NCBI GenBank assembly: GCA_030739855.1
Contig: JASLYJ010000001.1
Span: 70,998 to 103,796, forward strand
Reading direction: 5' to 3'
DNA length: 32,799 bases
Source: Alphaproteobacteria bacterium
GTDB lineage: Bacteria; Pseudomonadota; Alphaproteobacteria; UBA11136
Shown here one piece after another: positions 3,859-21,932 of the stretch (its first letter is position 1; every line of letters begins with the position of its first letter). The notes under the pieces are model-generated. The model did not search any database, was not told the origin of the DNA, and saw only the letters and a list, made by a program, of their open reading frames with translations. The translations under genes were made by a program, and so were the position numbers.

Positions 3859-4479
3859 ATGGCTTTCTTAATTCTCTTTGCTTTCCTGTTCCTTCCGTTG
3901 GTGGAAATTACCTTATTTATACTTGTGGGTGATATTCTAGGTCTAGGAGCGACCATAGGGCTGATTGTCCTGACCATGTTAGGCGGTGCGTGGCTATTGC
4001 GCCATTTGGGATTCACGGCCTTGCGGCGTCTGCGGGCGGATCTTGCCAGGCAGGAATATCCCGGGGTGGAGCTTTTCAACACCGTTTGCTTTTTCACCGC
4101 CGCCGTGCTTTTGATCCTTCCTGGATTCTTTACAGACATACTGGGATTTCTGCTTTTTATTCCCGGTCCCAGGAATGTTCTGAGGCGGACGCTTCTTCGC
4201 TATCTCGTTTCATCGGGTGTTGTCTTCGTACAAGATGATGTCTCCTTCCACAATGGGAATGGCGGGCACTCGTCTGGCGTCTTTGATGACGACGATCCCG
4301 GAAGGCGGCATCCCCCCGGTGGGGACCACATCATCGAAGGTGAATTCAAGGATCTGACCTCTCAACGAAAGAGGCCGGACACAGATGCCCCGTCCCTGAC
4401 CAATGCACGAGATCAAGACAGAAATGGGGAAGAATCCATCGAACATTCTGACAATGACGAAAAGCCGCCTTCTTTTTGA
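3859..4479 (+). CDS. fxsA: FxsA family membrane protein
   Basis: FLFLPLVEITLFILVGDILGLGATIGLIVLTMLGGAWLLR...LPGFFTDILGFLLFIPGPRNVLRR; syntenic with secB. Confidence 0.88.
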   Translation: MAFLILFAFLFLPLVEITLFILVGDILGLGATIGLIVLTMLGGAWLLRHLGFTALRRLRADLARQEYPGVELFNTVCFFTAAVLLILPGFFTDILGFLLFIPGPRNVLRRTLLRYLVSSGVVFVQDDVSFHNGNGGHSSGVFDDDDPGRRHPPGGDHIIEGEFKDLTSQRKRPDTDAPSLTNARDQDRNGEESIEHSDNDEKPPSF

Positions 4480-4645
4480 GCCTTCCTACGGGATTCAAGG
4501 TTGGCTGCAAAGAAGCACCACGCGTTGTTGTCCCCGACCCGGTTGCCAGGAACGGTGTTCCATGCTAGCCACAGAGAACTTTTTACGATCGGGACGTGGC
4601 TGGCGCAGCGGTCCGATTCTTGCCCCCCAGCCGGGAGTGTTTTTC

Positions 4646-5182
4646 ATGACAGACAAAAAACCCAAAGCCAAGGACCAGACAAATGGTGGGGGAGATGGAA
4701 AAATATCCGTTGAAGGTACCAACCAAGAGCTGAGAAGCCTTCCCATCACTATTCACGCCCAGTATCTGAAGGATTTGTCCTTCGAGTGTCCCAATTCTCC
4801 GGCGGTACTGATCAAGCAAGAACAGCCTCCCGAAATCAATGTGGACCTGAAGGTAAATGCCGAACCCGTGGCTGACTTTAAGGAAAACAGCTACGAAGTC
4901 TCTGTCATTATCGTTATCAAGGCCGAGTCCGCAGACGGCACCGCCTTTATTTCCGATTTGACCTATGCCGGTCTTTTCACCATTGAGGGCGTACCCGAAG
5001 ACTCTCTTGAGCCGGTTCTTCTGATTGAATGCCCGCGCCTTCTTTTTCCCTTCATCCGGGCCCTTATCGGCCAGGCCACCCGTGACGCCGGGTTCCCGCC
5101 GCTGATGCTCAATCCCTTTGATTTTGCGGATCTCTACCGGCGTAACAAGGCCGCTGCCCAGCCGGCAGCGGGCAATGCTTAG
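4646..5182 (+). CDS. secB: Protein-export chaperone SecB
   Basis: ITIHAQYLKDLSFECPNSP, ECPRLLFPFIRALIGQATRDAGFPPLMLNPFDFADLY. Start reassigned to MTDKKPKAKD at 4646; the ORF-track extension to 4403 overlaps fxsA. Confidence 0.95.
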   Translation: MTDKKPKAKDQTNGGGDGKISVEGTNQELRSLPITIHAQYLKDLSFECPNSPAVLIKQEQPPEINVDLKVNAEPVADFKENSYEVSVIIVIKAESADGTAFISDLTYAGLFTIEGVPEDSLEPVLLIECPRLLFPFIRALIGQATRDAGFPPLMLNPFDFADLYRRNKAAAQPAAGNA

Positions 5183-8040: not shown

Positions 8041-8859
8041 TCAGGGGTTACCCTCCCGACGCTGAGTATGATGCTGAAGAACAATGGTAGCTATCTCCTC
8101 TATAGATTTACGCGTACCGTCAATGACCGGCCAACGATAGCGAGTAAAAATTTTTTGAGCGTTAACTATTTCCTTATGGACCGTCTCGATATCCGCATAG
8201 TCCGTTTCTTGATCTTGATTTAGAACATCAAGACGGTTCTTTCTAACCAGCGCGAGATGTTTTGGGTTTTTGGTCATTCCAATAATCAAGGGGGCTTTGA
8301 CCTTGAAAAGTTCTGGTGGTAGAGGATAGCCGGGGACCAAAGGAACATTAGCCGCGCTGATTCCTCGGTTGGCGAGATAAAGACAGGTGGGTGTTTTCGA
8401 GGTTCGGGAAACACCGACGAGGATTACGTCAGCTTTATCAAGGTCGGCGACGGATTGACCGTCATCATGGGCCAACACATAATTCATGGCCTCGATACGA
8501 TGGAAATATTGCGCATCCAGAATGTGTTGGTGTCCTGGTTTTCGCTGGCTTTTTAGGCCGAAAAACTTACTCATAGCGGTGATGATAGGGTCCAGCGCTG
8601 AGAGACAGGGAATATCGAGATCTATACATGTTTTTTCGAGGTGTTGCTGAAGTTGCCGGTTCACTACGGTGTAGAGAACCAAGCCGGGCTTTTTTTTAAC
8701 CTCCTTAATGACTTTGCTAAGCTCGCTTTTTGTCCTCACCAAATTCCACACGTGTTCTTTGGGTTCCACGCTTGGAAACTGGACAATACACGCACGCGCA
8801 AGTTTACCAACGGTTTCGCCCGTAGCATCAGATATCAGGTGAAGGTGAAGCGTCTCCAT
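8041..8859 (-). CDS. ppsR: PEP synthase regulatory protein / bifunctional kinase-pyrophosphorylase (DUF299)
   Basis: LHLISDATGETVGKLARACIVQFP, VDLDKADVILVGVSRTSKTPTCLYLANRG, VPLVPGYPLPPELF; the RP001/CC0001-type neighbour of alphaproteobacterial oriC. Confidence 0.93.
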   Translation of the reverse strand: METLHLHLISDATGETVGKLARACIVQFPSVEPKEHVWNLVRTKSELSKVIKEVKKKPGLVLYTVVNRQLQQHLEKTCIDLDIPCLSALDPIITAMSKFFGLKSQRKPGHQHILDAQYFHRIEAMNYVLAHDDGQSVADLDKADVILVGVSRTSKTPTCLYLANRGISAANVPLVPGYPLPPELFKVKAPLIIGMTKNPKHLALVRKNRLDVLNQDQETDYADIETVHKEIVNAQKIFTRYRWPVIDGTRKSIEEIATIVLQHHTQRREGNP

Positions 8860-9260
8860 GGCAAATAACGTCTGTTAGTGGTTTGTGAAAGGTGGGGGTA
8901 ATCGGATTTAAATAAGATCCTGCTGTACATTTTCCCCGTAAGAAAATTTTTTCCTATTATTAATCCCAAAAATAAAACACACGTTTTAATTTCAATAATA
9001 TCCTTAATATCTTCATTCGATTCCTTTTTTTCCCACATAATTCACTTTTTTAAGACTATTCGAATATACTCTATTCCCTTGTTTTACACCATAAAGTGGC
9101 ATTTTATTCCCATCAATTTCAATATCATCTCTATTACTCTATATCGAGAGTATGAAATGTGGAAAAGTCAAAATCCCCAGTTTCCACAGGGATTCACTAC
9201 TACAACTATTTTTCTTTTAATTTATTTATTGTTTATATAGCTCAGTATAAAACGATCTTT
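8860..9260. other. oriC: Putative chromosomal replication origin region (oriC)
   Basis: About 400-bp AT-rich non-coding gap between divergent ppsR and hemE; DnaA-box-like sites TGTGGAAAA (9158-9166), GTTTCCACA (9180-9188) and TTTTACACC (9082-9090); long A/T tracts 8940-9060. The location matches the known Caulobacter/Rickettsia origin locus. Confidence 0.72.
9158..9188. repeat. Inverted pair of DnaA-box-like motifs
   Basis: TGTGGAAA (9158-9165) and TTTCCACA (9181-9188) form a perfect 8-bp inverted repeat with a 15-nt spacer, just upstream of the hemE start. Confidence 0.6.
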
Positions 9261-10337
9261 ATGACATTAAAGCAAAAGACGAAACACACTTCTTCTCCCT
9301 CTAAAAAACCTATTCTCCAGGTGCTTAATGGGAAGAGTTTGAATCCACCTCCCTTTTGGTTAATGCGTCAAGCCGGACGATATCTTCCTGAATACCGAAA
9401 AGTTCGTAGCCAAGTAGAAAATTTTCTAAATCTTTGTCTCACTCCGAAACACGCCGTTGAGGTGACGCTTCAACCTATCCGGCGTTACAATATGGATGCT
9501 GCTATTCTTTTTTCAGATATCCTTATGGTACCTTATGCCTTAGGACAGAATGTGGATTTTAGGAAAAGCGAAGGACCGGTTTTAGAAAAGTTATCTAATA
9601 TTTCCAAGTTCTGTGATTTTAATATTGAAACTTTTCATCACTCCCTCGGACCGGTGTATGAAACTATTAACTTAGTAAAGGAAGAGCTGGACAATAATAC
9701 GACTCTAATCGGTTTTTGTGGAGCACCGTGGACAGTAGCTACTTATATGATAGAAGGAGGTAGTACTCGTGATTTTACTCGAGTAATGTCCTTTGCTCGT
9801 TCACAACCAGAGGCGTTCCATGGTCTCCTTTCCATTCTTATAGAAGCTTCATTTCATTACCTAAATAAACAGATAACTTCCGGAGCAGAAGTTATTCAAA
9901 TTTTTGATAGCTGGGCCGGTGTTTTGAATGAAAAAGAATTCCGGCAATGGGTTATCAAGCCCACAAAAGAAATTATTCAACGGCTTCATGTGCAGCATCC
10001 CCATATACCTGTCATCGGTTTCCCCAGACAGGCAGGACCGCTTTACACAGACTACATAAAAGAAACTGGTGTGACGGCTATAAGTCTGGACCAAACGGCT
10101 TCTGTTGCCTGGGTAGCCAAGAACATTCAACCGCTCTGTGCAGTTCAGGGGAATCTTGATCCCCGCGTGCTTGTTGCCGGTGGAGAGGCGATGCAAGAAT
10201 CTCTGCAGGAGATTCTTTCAACCTTAGGAGAGGCGCCCTTCATCTTTAATCTTGGTCATGGCATATTGCCGACCACGCCGCCGGAACATGTGGCCGAACT
10301 AACCGCTTGTATCCGCTCCTGGTCCCAGAAAACCTAG
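9261..10337 (+). CDS. hemE: Uroporphyrinogen decarboxylase
   Basis: PPFWLMRQAGRYLPEYR, FSDILMVPYALGQ, GFCGAPWTVATYMIEGG, FDSWAG, GNLDPRVL, FNLGHGILPTTPPEHV. Start chosen at MTLKQKTK (9261) rather than the in-frame upstream start at 9159. Confidence 0.95.
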   Translation: MTLKQKTKHTSSPSKKPILQVLNGKSLNPPPFWLMRQAGRYLPEYRKVRSQVENFLNLCLTPKHAVEVTLQPIRRYNMDAAILFSDILMVPYALGQNVDFRKSEGPVLEKLSNISKFCDFNIETFHHSLGPVYETINLVKEELDNNTTLIGFCGAPWTVATYMIEGGSTRDFTRVMSFARSQPEAFHGLLSILIEASFHYLNKQITSGAEVIQIFDSWAGVLNEKEFRQWVIKPTKEIIQRLHVQHPHIPVIGFPRQAGPLYTDYIKETGVTAISLDQTASVAWVAKNIQPLCAVQGNLDPRVLVAGGEAMQESLQEILSTLGEAPFIFNLGHGILPTTPPEHVAELTACIRSWSQKT

Positions 10338-15695: not shown

Positions 15696-15711
15696 TGTTG
15701 CACGTGAAGCA
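15696..15711. promoter_or_regulatory. parS: Degenerate parS-like site
   Basis: TGTTGCACGTGAAGCA matches 14/16 of TGTTTCACGTGAAACA; lies in the mnmE-mnmG intergenic gap. Confidence 0.5.
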
Positions 15712-17714: not shown

Positions 17715-17820
17715 TTGAGCACGGGAAGGGACCATCTCCCAGAGGGGCGGAGGCGGGCCAGTCACCGGGAGAGTTGTTTCTGAGGGCTCTTATTTATTCT
17801 TTTTCTCCATACCAGATATT

Positions 17821-17844
17821 GTATATATATATAAATTATCCACA
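17821..17844 (+). promoter_or_regulatory. Perfect DnaA box (TTATCCACA) preceded by a TA-repeat tract
   Basis: gTATATATATATAAA (17822-17835) directly followed by TTATCCACA (17836-17844) in the mnmG-rsmG gap. Confidence 0.55.
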
Positions 17845-17906
17845 TGAACTAGGATGTCTTTCAGACGAAATTGCCCTGAGCATCATAAAAAGATAGAAAC
17901 TCCCTT

Positions 17907-18560
17907 ATGGAGCGACAATCCACCATGTCCCCACAAGCCTTCGCTGAGGCACTCACTGTTTCACGTGAAACATTGGACCGTCTTTGCTGCTACGGAGCGC
18001 TCTTGGAAAAATGGCAGAAGAAAATCAACCTGGTGAGTGCGGATACTCTTTCCGATCTGTGGCGACGACATATGCTGGATTCAGCGCAGCTTCTGGCCCC
18101 TGTAAACGCCCTTGAGACAAAAAACCCTGTAATCTTTGATTTGGGAAGCGGGGCGGGCTTCCCGGGGATGGTTCTTGCTATCATGGGTGCGGGCGAGGTA
18201 CATCTGGTGGAAAGTGATCAGCGCAAATGTGCCTTTCTGGGGGAAGTGGCACGGGCAACGGGCACCACCCTAGCCATTCATGATTCCCGGGCGGAAAATC
18301 TTTCTTCCCGGCCGGTGGACATCGTTACAGCCCGAGCGCTGGCGCCGTTGCACAAGACCCTTGGCTATGCTGAGCTCTTATTGGGAGACAAAACCGTCTG
18401 TTTTTTTCTCAAGGGCCGTCATGCGAGGGAAGAATTGACCCAGGCATCAAAAAAATGGAATATGCGAGTAGAAAACATTCAAAGTCTTAGCTCCCCCTCT
18501 GGAACCATCCTGAGGATCGACCATCTGGCCCGGAGGCCTTCGGGAAAAAGAAATAAATAG
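17907..18560 (+). CDS. rsmG: 16S rRNA (guanine527-N7)-methyltransferase RsmG (GidB)
   Basis: NLVSADTLSDLWRRHMLDSAQL, VIFDLGSGAGFPGMVLAI, VESDQRKCAFLGEVAR. Confidence 0.95.
   Translation: MERQSTMSPQAFAEALTVSRETLDRLCCYGALLEKWQKKINLVSADTLSDLWRRHMLDSAQLLAPVNALETKNPVIFDLGSGAGFPGMVLAIMGAGEVHLVESDQRKCAFLGEVARATGTTLAIHDSRAENLSSRPVDIVTARALAPLHKTLGYAELLLGDKTVCFFLKGRHAREELTQASKKWNMRVENIQSLSSPSGTILRIDHLARRPSGKRNK
17957..17972. promoter_or_regulatory. parS: Perfect parS centromere-like site for ParB
   Basis: TGTTTCACGTGAAACA, the exact 16-bp palindromic consensus, within rsmG codons for VSRET and about 0.6 kb upstream of parA. Confidence 0.95.
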
Positions 18561-18570
18561 AGGCGAAAAC

Positions 18571-19362
18571 ATGGAAAACCAGATGACGCAGATCATGGCT
18601 ATCGTCAATCAAAAAGGAGGGGTGGGAAAAACTACTACTGCCATAAATTTGGCCACAGCCATGGCTGCTACCGGCAAACAGGTTTTGGTCATTGATCTCG
18701 ATCCCCAAGGCAATGCCAGCACCGGACTTGGTATAAGCCAAAAAGACCGACAATTTAGCAGCTATGATCTGCTGATTCGGGAAACTTCCCTAGAGCACGT
18801 CACTACCTCCTCTTTCGTGCCGGGCCTGGACATTGTTCCCTCTAATATGGATCTCTCGGGTGCGGAGATTGAAATGGTAGCCCTTCCCAGGCGCGAATTT
18901 CGCTTGCGCGATAACCTCTCTCACGCTGTCGACGATTATGATTACGTACTGATTGACTGTCCCCCGGCGCTTGGTTTTCTCTCTCTCAACGCCCTAACTG
19001 CGGCGCACACAGTTCTTGTGCCCCTGCAATGCGAATTCTATGCCCTTGAAGGACTGAGCCATCTCATGCGGACCGTAGAGCGTGTCAAGCAAAACCTCAA
19101 TCCATCCCTCGAACTACAAGGTATTGTGTTGACTATGTATGATGGACGCAACAGCTTGTGTGGTCAGGTGGCGGAAGATGTTCGGGGGTTTCTTGGTGAC
19201 AAAGTCTATGACACGGTCATACCTAGGAATGTGCGGGTCTCGGAAGCTCCCTCTTACGGAAAACCGGTGCTACTTTACGACCACCGTTGTGCCGGCGCCA
19301 AGGCCTATATTCATCTCGCAGGCGAAATGTTGCGGCGGGAAAACACCAATAGGGCCCGGTAA
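18571..19362 (+). CDS. parA: Chromosome partitioning ATPase ParA
   Basis: IMAIVNQKGGVGKTTTAINLATAMAATGKQVLVIDLDPQGNASTGLG. Confidence 0.96.
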   Translation: MENQMTQIMAIVNQKGGVGKTTTAINLATAMAATGKQVLVIDLDPQGNASTGLGISQKDRQFSSYDLLIRETSLEHVTTSSFVPGLDIVPSNMDLSGAEIEMVALPRREFRLRDNLSHAVDDYDYVLIDCPPALGFLSLNALTAAHTVLVPLQCEFYALEGLSHLMRTVERVKQNLNPSLELQGIVLTMYDGRNSLCGQVAEDVRGFLGDKVYDTVIPRNVRVSEAPSYGKPVLLYDHRCAGAKAYIHLAGEMLRRENTNRAR

Positions 19363-20265
19363 GTGAACACGGAAAGAGAAGAGAGCAGGAAACGCAAGCT
19401 AGGCAAGGGACTCTCCGCGCTTCTGGGCGACGATGAGGGGGCTTATGCCGAACTTGCTGGCCAGGGTCATTTTACCAAAACGGTTCCCATTGAATTTATC
19501 CACCCGGGAAGGTTCCAGCCCCGGCGAGTGTTCGACGAGGTGGAAATTTTGGGCCTGGTAGATTCTATCAAAAAGCAAGGAATCATCCAGCCGATCCTTG
19601 TACGGCGCCATCCCGATAAACCGATGGCTTATGAAATCATCGCCGGGGAACGGCGGTGGCGCGCGGCGCAAAAGGCGGAGCTGCACGAAATTTTGGTCAG
19701 CATCAAGGATCTCAATGATAGCGAATCACTGGAGATCGCGCTGGTGGAAAATCTACAACGGCAGGATCTTAATCCCCTGGAAGAAGCTGAAGGCTATCAG
19801 CGACTCATTGACGAATTTTCCAATACCCAGGAAGACCTCGCAAAAACCGTGGGCAAAAGCCGCAGCCACGTAGCTAATACGCTGCGCCTGCTAAGCCTTC
19901 CTGACAGCGTCAAGGAGATGGTGGATAAGGGAAAACTCAGCGCTGGCCATGCGCGCGCTCTGGTGGGGGTGAAAAAAAACGAGGCCTTGGCTAAACAAGT
20001 AGTGAAAAAAGGCCTAAATGTGCGCCAAACGGAAGCCTTGGTGCAGACAGAAAGTAAAAGGACACAATTAAAGAAAAACAGGGTGGAGACGGCAGGAAAA
20101 GACCCTGACACCATTGCCGTGGAGCGGGAGATGATGGCTCTACTGGGCCTAGACGTCTCCATTACCTATCGGGAAGGCAGGGGCGGACGTCTCACCATCC
20201 GCTACCAGAGCTTAGAACAGCTGGAAGACGTTCTCGAGCGCCTCAGCCATGAGCCCCGCCATTAA
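19363..20265 (+). CDS. parB: Chromosome partitioning protein ParB
   Basis: RKLGKGLSALLGDD, NPGRFQPRR-like HPGRFQPRRVFDE, AGERRWRAAQKA, VENLQRQDLNPLEEAEGYQRL, HTH KTVGKSRSHVANTLRLLSLP; GTG start. Confidence 0.96.
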   Translation: MNTEREESRKRKLGKGLSALLGDDEGAYAELAGQGHFTKTVPIEFIHPGRFQPRRVFDEVEILGLVDSIKKQGIIQPILVRRHPDKPMAYEIIAGERRWRAAQKAELHEILVSIKDLNDSESLEIALVENLQRQDLNPLEEAEGYQRLIDEFSNTQEDLAKTVGKSRSHVANTLRLLSLPDSVKEMVDKGKLSAGHARALVGVKKNEALAKQVVKKGLNVRQTEALVQTESKRTQLKKNRVETAGKDPDTIAVEREMMALLGLDVSITYREGRGGRLTIRYQSLEQLEDVLERLSHEPRH

Positions 20266-21311
20266 GCCTGGGACGGCGGCTTTTTGGGGGTTGCCTTGAC
20301 CGCCGATGCCAGCGCTAGCAACGTGCGGTGACAAATAGTTTCGGCAGGAAAGCCCGTTGTCTTACAGTCACGCTCGGCATCCATGAGCCGCTGTAATGCG
20401 CTAGACGCACGTTCCGGTGACCACAGGCGAAGCTGAGTGCGGAAGGCACTCTTTACTTTGAAAAAGAGAGGCGGCTTGAGCCCAGAGATAGCACAATCGG
20501 CGGTTAAGCCTTGGGCTATCTGGCCGCTCACAAAATGCAGCCGTCGGAAATGGCCAGCGGTCCACCGGAAAAGCTGGACCGGGGAAACGCCTTCGAGAAA
20601 AACCCGCTCTAGGCTTTTCTCCAGAAGCGCCACATTGCCACTTCCTACCGCATAGGCCACGTCATCTAAAGACAGGACTGAACTGTCGGCGGTACAGGCC
20701 ATGGCGTCATCTAGCGTCACCGTTCCCTCGTCTGCTACATAAAGGGCAAGTTTCATCAGCTCAGCACGAGTAACACTCCGGTCCGTACCAAGAGAACTGG
20801 AAAGATAGGCCAAGGCTGCCCGTGAAACAGAAACACCATGATCCCGCAGGATCTCCTCAATAACTGAGGCAAGCCCAGCGCCTTCATCCCCATAACAGGG
20901 AAGAGCCGCGGCCAGGGAAGAGTCTTCGAAAGCCTTGCGCAGGCTGGAGCGAGCGGAAAGCTCTTCGGCTTCAACGAGGATCAGGGATTCTCCCACGGGA
21001 TCGGAAAAAAAGGATTTGAAAACAGGGGTTAAACTATCCACTGCCTTGCGGATAAAAACTACGCGGCTTCCCCCGATCAGGGAGAGAGCCGCGGCTTCAT
21101 CGGCTAGGCGCGCTGAATCGTTCGCTAGGGTTTCCCCATAGAGCGCGGTGCAGCGAAAGGGATCAGACAAGTCCTCGCCCAACACATTGCGGGCGAGGAT
21201 CTCGGTACGTTCGCGAACCAGTCCGCCATCGGGCCCGTAGACCAGAATTGCCCGGACAGCACTGTCCGGCTGTCGAAGAAAGGAGGCAATCTGGGCGGGC
21301 TTGATTTTCAT
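20262..21311 (-). CDS. holA: DNA polymerase III delta subunit
   Basis: MKIKPAQIASFLRQPDSAVRAILVYGPDGGLVRERTEIL; RFFWTAGHFRRL-type region; conserved parB-holA-lptE-leuS order. Confidence 0.9.
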   Translation of the reverse strand: MKIKPAQIASFLRQPDSAVRAILVYGPDGGLVRERTEILARNVLGEDLSDPFRCTALYGETLANDSARLADEAAALSLIGGSRVVFIRKAVDSLTPVFKSFFSDPVGESLILVEAEELSARSSLRKAFEDSSLAAALPCYGDEGAGLASVIEEILRDHGVSVSRAALAYLSSSLGTDRSVTRAELMKLALYVADEGTVTLDDAMACTADSSVLSLDDVAYAVGSGNVALLEKSLERVFLEGVSPVQLFRWTAGHFRRLHFVSGQIAQGLTADCAISGLKPPLFFKVKSAFRTQLRLWSPERASSALQRLMDAERDCKTTGFPAETICHRTLLALASAVKATPKKPPSQA

Positions 21312-21329
21312 GGGATCACCACCGACTTG

Positions 21330-21932
21330 TCACCGCGCCGTCTCTTCTTTCCGTTCCAGGCGTTTTTGCTTTTCTTTCTCTTTGTTCCGTTTGATCCAGT
21401 ATTTCCTCGCAGCCTTGTTGCCTTCAGGGTCGCTGGAAAAGAGAAGGGAAAGACGCAACTTAATATCCTGGGCAATGGCTCTCAGAGAATGGTTCATGGC
21501 ATCTTTCTTCGAACTCAGGGTAGCGAAGTCGGAATCAAGAATGTCATATCCACTTGTTGCCCCGCTAGTGCCGCTCAATATTTTAGCTTGGTCACTTGTG
21601 CGAAGTAAGGAATAGGAAGCCATTACTTGCATAATCGCTCGCGTGGCACGGTCATTGCGGCGGATGCCTAGATTTCTGATAGAAGATTCCACGGTTACAT
21701 CCAACATATAGGAAAGATGTGTAGATTGGCCTTTTGGTGTTAGCTGGTCCATCAGCATATTTTTCAAAATTTGCCCTTTGCGATCTGCAATGTTGTGGAT
21801 CTCTATGGTCGCCAGTTCGGGCTGGGTGTTTTGCTTTCCCTTTAGGTAAAGGGGGCTAAAGCCGCAACCAGAAAGAAGCGCAACAAGAACCAACAAAGAT
21901 GCGGTTCGATGGAAATGTCTAAGCCACCACAT
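21330..21932 (-). CDS. lptE: LPS assembly lipoprotein LptE
   Basis: Lipobox [11 protein letters not shown]; secreted small protein adjacent to leuS and holA; starts inside the end of leuS (14-bp overlap). Confidence 0.82.

Follow-up and report, generated by a model that had tools for sequence, protein, structure and literature searches.

Closest described origins

In Caulobacter crescentus the chromosomal origin (Cori) occupies the 404 bp gap between hemE and CC_0001 (PMC1914354), and the Rickettsia prowazekii origin lies in the AT-rich 384 bp gap between RP885 (hemE) and RP001 (PMC1914354, Table 1). In both cases the boundary genes are hemE and a COG1806 gene. Criteria for such hemE-type origins of Alphaproteobacteria are available, and the experimentally known ones have the same flanking genes as the locus described here (PMC1914354). 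Cori also contains the weak W-box TCCCCA (PMC4285127), and has a linked parABS system and raised AT content (PMC4468827). CtrA and IHF sites were reported at the R. prowazekii origin according to the title of a reference in PMC4468827, while CtrA sites were not seen in most other origins (PMC4468827).

A second relevant system is the basal unwinding system (BUS) of B. subtilis and other bacteria, which consists of a DnaA box, a spacer, 3'-GAT-5' repeats and AT-rich DNA, in this order, with a stronger upstream and a weaker downstream tandem box (PMC8287927; PMC6669920). DnaA-trios have 3'-GAT-5' as their consensus (PMC6669920), and DnaA-trio systems have been reported broadly, including Proteobacteria (PMC8287927).

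The locus considered here is a part of the window, a 32,799 bp stretch from the draft genome of an uncultured alphaproteobacterium whose relatives include MAGs labelled Rhodospirillaceae. The initial annotation proposed a candidate oriC between ppsR and hemE. Synteny, sequence conservation restricted to the hemE end of the gap across the class, a change of GC skew in the contig, skew switches in two relatives and a unique parS nearby all point to this gap, which is very probably the chromosomal origin where DnaA would bind, unwind DNA and initiate replication. It is thus a predicted origin of a known kind in a known location: the place, gene order and type have already been established for the class (PMC1914354).

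The ppsR-hemE gap

The AT-rich gap of about 400 bp between leftward ppsR and rightward hemE was placed correctly by the initial annotation. It is 401 bp long, within the range of about 380–620 bp expected for a hemE-type origin, is bounded by both hemE and the COG1806 gene, and has 30% GC, compared to about 51–58% in most of the 2.5 kb blocks of the contig. No other 400 bp of the whole 103.8 kb contig (C21 of our assembly, G000) have a lower GC content. Its length is nearly the same as that of Cori, and it also shares the W-box, linked partition system and raised AT content with Cori, a likeness drawn from published descriptions of Cori. Unlike Cori, the gap has neither CtrA sites (at most one mismatch allowed) nor TGATCCACA G-boxes. 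It resembles the R. prowazekii origin in boundary genes, size and AT-richness and differs, as far as the cited reference title tells, by the lack of a CtrA site and in that its two candidate IHF-like sites, located in AT-rich DNA, each have one mismatch. Features of the locus are listed in Table 1.

Table 1. Predicted origin, its elements and neighbouring genes (window coordinates)
Feature	Position	Strand	Remarks
ppsR (DUF299/COG1806), left boundary gene	8041..8859	-	NF003742, 334 bits
Predicted oriC, ppsR-hemE intergenic gap	8860..9260		30% GC, flanking genes as in known origins
Predicted DnaA box TTTTCCACA (TGTGGAAAA on +), left arm of inverted pair	9158..9166	-	conserved
W-box-like weak DnaA site TCCCCA	9174..9179	+	identical to the W-box consensus of C. 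crescentus (PMC4285127)
Predicted DnaA box GTTTCCACA, right arm of inverted pair	9180..9188	+	class consensus nTaTcCACA
Weak tandem DnaA-box-like site GGATTCACT	9190..9198	+	class consensus GcATCCACT; box identity by similarity only
DnaA-trio-like repeat CTA-CTA-CAA-CTA	9197..9208	+	bottom strand 3'-GAT-GAT-GTT-GAT-5'
Putative DNA unwinding element, 42 bp	9209..9250		86% A+T, immediately follows the trio-like repeat
hemE, right boundary gene	9261..10337	+	TIGR01464, 400 bits
Exact parS TGTTTCACGTGAAACA	17957..17972		inside the start of rsmG (gidB), beside parA-parB
parA-parB, chromosome partition genes	18571..20265	+	AAA_31; HTH_ParB, ParB_N

The hemE frame could be extended to a GTG at 9159 (+). 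Its match to the HemE profile would then start at residue 52, which favours the ATG at 9261 as the start codon. The gap separates dnaQ-coaE-aroE-maf-ppsR from hemE-hemH-hemJ-rho-mnmE-gidA-gidB-parA-parB; this is the hemE-ppsR location which the initial annotation had compared to that of Caulobacter and Rickettsia, and the order of the two boundary genes is indeed the same (PMC1914354). Divergent ppsR adjoins hemE in 34 of the 38 other loci compared. Searches of the window for tRNA genes and Rfam families found none. The SecB reading frame of the window (4403–5182) has about 107 extra residues ahead of the SecB match (residues 108–255), and a later true start is probable.

GC skew and strand bias

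GC skew of the contig is negative in the first 72 kb, flat further on and positive in the last 14 kb. The skew, whose cumulative form was named in the initial annotation as a check, does change sign around the gap with a significant change point (block-permutation p = 0.005), but the location of the change is resolved to no better than about 20 kb (about 72–90 kb): the gap, at about 80 kb, is bracketed by the CUSUM change point at 71 kb, 9 kb away on one side, and by the cumulative minimum at 84.6 kb, 4.4 kb away on the other. The assembly has 1.41 Mb in 109 contigs and is 88% complete; its skew is therefore read at the contig scale. To the left of the gap 52 of the 70 long reading frames point leftward, and to the right there are 10 in each direction. 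KOPS-like octamers of the contig show no polarity.

Two relatives with long contigs have their switches at hemE. In the complete genome G012, negative skew extends to hemE and gives way to positive skew in the 5 kb step from 3,605,001, with the hemE start at 3,605,147. Beyond hemE it is weak and locally mixed, the local cumulative minimum being 11.5 kb further on, and the opposite switch is found between 1.52 and 1.70 Mb, approximately half a genome away. In G044 the local cumulative minimum (654,513) is within hemE. Skew is unclear in two other single-contig genomes, G057 (with one masked stretch) and G031.

Conserved core of the gap

The window gap was aligned with those of three order relatives, two from the same genus and one from the same family. 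The strongest conserved block covers positions 9158–9208 and reads TGTGGAAAA GTCAAAA TCCCCA GTTTCCACA G GGATTCACTACTACAACTA. This core is the decisive feature of the gap; it was described in part by the initial annotation, which missed the more diagnostic W-box, weak tandem box and DnaA-trio-like repeat. The left arm of the inverted pair is kept at the same position in all four order members and in much of the class, and ATCCCC at the W-box position is conserved across the class. Measured from start to start, the arms are spaced by 22 bp in the window and in two other loci (L038 and L010). The weak tandem site shares two bases with the first trio, and the trio-like element itself is CTACTACAACTA. 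For an uncultured lineage, the likely origin is thereby narrowed to about 100 bp.

The three boxes named in the initial annotation are all present, yet, taken alone, they are weak evidence for an origin. One of them, TTTTACACC at 9082–9090, is not conserved in relatives and therefore is a poor box. Chance levels were obtained from 1000 dinucleotide shuffles of the gap. A single site with at most one mismatch to TTATCCACA is reached by 16% of shuffles and is not significant, so we rejected the box count alone as origin evidence. Six sites with at most one mismatch to TTWTNCACA, with 1.5 expected, are significant, being reached by 0.3% of shuffles. Neither the inverted TGTGGA..TCCACA nor a box followed by CTACTA (TCCACA..CTACTA) appeared in any of the 1000 shuffles. 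As had been noted initially, an exact TTATCCACA is missing from the gap; so is TTAA-N7-TTAA, also when one mismatch is allowed. Several boxes are nevertheless there, in the form of the conserved inverted pair and the W-box. The term "weak boxes" of the initial annotation is slightly unfair to TTTTCCACA, an exact fit to TTWTNCACA. A terminator-like hairpin (9171–9195) was considered and rejected; the relatives do not preserve its right arm, and we treat it as a by-product of the boxes.

The core has the BUS order of elements, including the stronger and weaker tandem boxes. The published rule demands a DnaA box with at most two mismatches, a 0–16 bp spacer and at least three contiguous NAN trios on the proper strand. 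On the conserved strand we found a box with two mismatches, an 8 bp spacer and, unlike the BUS minimum of three, two contiguous trios followed by a broken third (GTT) and a good fourth (GAT). Because of the broken third trio the element is not filed as a formal BUS member, only as one that may work like BUS. The one formal match in the gap runs leftwards from 9158 on the opposite strand, in a part not matched by the relatives.

The broken trio and the difference of the gap boxes from TTATCCACA could be taken as marks of a former origin, an ancestral sequence kept in the gap after initiation had moved elsewhere. We consider this scarcely credible: genus and order have retained the core while the rest of the gap diverged more, and the contig skew still changes sign near the gap.

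TTATCCCCA, a W-box inside a DnaA-box frame, recurs in many ppsR-hemE gaps of the class (loci L012-L047), often about 150–250 bp from the ppsR start. These recurrences are possibly a second conserved cluster of weak sites.

The core in other genomes

A 28-base pattern, the order consensus of the core, was run against 116 whole genomes, allowing three mismatches at most. Ten genomes matched, with one site each, always 61–371 bp upstream of hemE and on the hemE strand; the reversed control pattern gave no matches in the 116 genomes. Six of the ten belong to other families of the class, and in our assembly the pattern occurs once. Most of the matched gap sequences had already been inspected, so these counts are not a blind test. 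Applied to 35 held-out loci of the class (210 kb), a profile HMM built from just the four order members had 15 matches (E <= 0.1), each 30–239 bp upstream of hemE. After iteration, a partly circular step, 19 of 38 loci matched at E <= 0.01, with one extra match elsewhere and none in shuffled loci. At this threshold about half of the class loci thus have a recognisable core, and the hemE-side conservation extends well beyond Caulobacter and Rickettsia.

The class consensus of the core is TGtGgAnAA-N6-ATCCCCgnTaTcCACAGGcATCCACTACcACta. We give about even chances to the proposal that it is a class-wide origin-opening module of Alphaproteobacteria, composed of an inverted pair, a W-box, a tandem weak box and an interrupted DnaA-trio, which may serve as a one-motif oriC marker for draft genomes and operates without CtrA control in this lineage. 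A literature search of limited coverage found no description of this class-wide core. Should the core prove to be the opening module, an interrupted DnaA-trio would be in use at alphaproteobacterial origins; a motif of such specificity would also help to locate origins in draft genomes and support read-depth estimates of growth rate.

As the core is found just upstream of hemE and on the hemE strand in every genome where it was detected, and DnaA also regulates genes, it might instead be a DnaA-controlled promoter or operator of hemE, with the origin located elsewhere. The gap does have one sigma-70-like site on the + strand, which is no more than expected by chance. We regard this explanation as improbable, since GC skew switches at hemE in both G012 and G044, the flanking genes are those of known origins (PMC1914354), and the strongest part of the core, a box followed by a trio-like repeat and an AT-rich stretch, has the architecture of an unwinding region rather than of a promoter. 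An origin and a hemE promoter may coexist in the same gap, so promoter activity alone would not be decisive.

CtrA, DnaA and the proposed course of initiation

Many members of the class have CtrA orthologues with 55–87% identity to the Caulobacter CtrA query. The best CtrA-like protein of our assembly is 38% identical to it. No orthologue was found in this genome and in G001 and G003 (best hits of 36–38%, assemblies 86–88% complete), while G002 of the same genus has one with 70% identity; this patchiness reflects either patchy loss or gaps in the three assemblies. Together with the lack of CtrA sites in the gap, it suggests that the predicted origin is not controlled by CtrA. This is not a proof, as the assembly is 88% complete and G002 has the orthologue. 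CtrA sites are optional for the class, being unseen in most other origins (PMC4468827). A single DnaA of about 478 aa is encoded by the assembly, on contig C48; it carries the motif GNRDHTTVMHA and gives the usual match to domain IV.

We infer the following course of events from the order of the elements. DnaA would bind the inverted box pair (9158–9188), spread over the W-box and the weak tandem box towards hemE, and load as a filament along one strand of the trio-like repeat. The adjacent AT-rich stretch would then open, helicases would enter the opened DNA and two forks would leave in opposite directions. ParB bound to the nearby parS may segregate the new origins.

Partition genes and other candidate sites

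The exact parS is 8.7 kb from the core and has no other exact copy in the 1.41 Mb assembly; in the related genome G001, too, this gene region contains an exact parS. Another palindrome resembling parS, but with two mismatches (TGTTGCACGTGAAGCA), is located at 15696–15711, 2.3 kb before the exact one.

The dnaA-dnaN locus is the origin site in many bacteria, and a perfect TTATCCACA beside a TA repeat is present in the mnmG-rsmG (gidA-gidB) gap (17715–17906), which is also included in the flat-skew region of the contig. Either place might be thought to house the origin instead of the ppsR-hemE gap. Neither matches the core pattern; on the contig with dnaA (C48) there is a single near-box in 6.8 kb, and none of its gaps reaches the AT content of the ppsR-hemE gap, and the perfect box is absent from the same gap of G001, for which reason it was rejected as a rival origin. 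An origin at one of these sites is accordingly very unlikely, and the ppsR-hemE gap remains the preferred location.

The perfect box (17836–17844) and the adjoining (TA)n run are upstream of rsmG-parA-parB, and possibly belong to a DnaA-controlled promoter of the partition operon. Two reading frames in the parB-leuS interval, 20262–21311 (-) and 21330–21932 (-), code for products of 349 and 200 aa with no Pfam match; judging by their position, these may be diverged holA and lptE.
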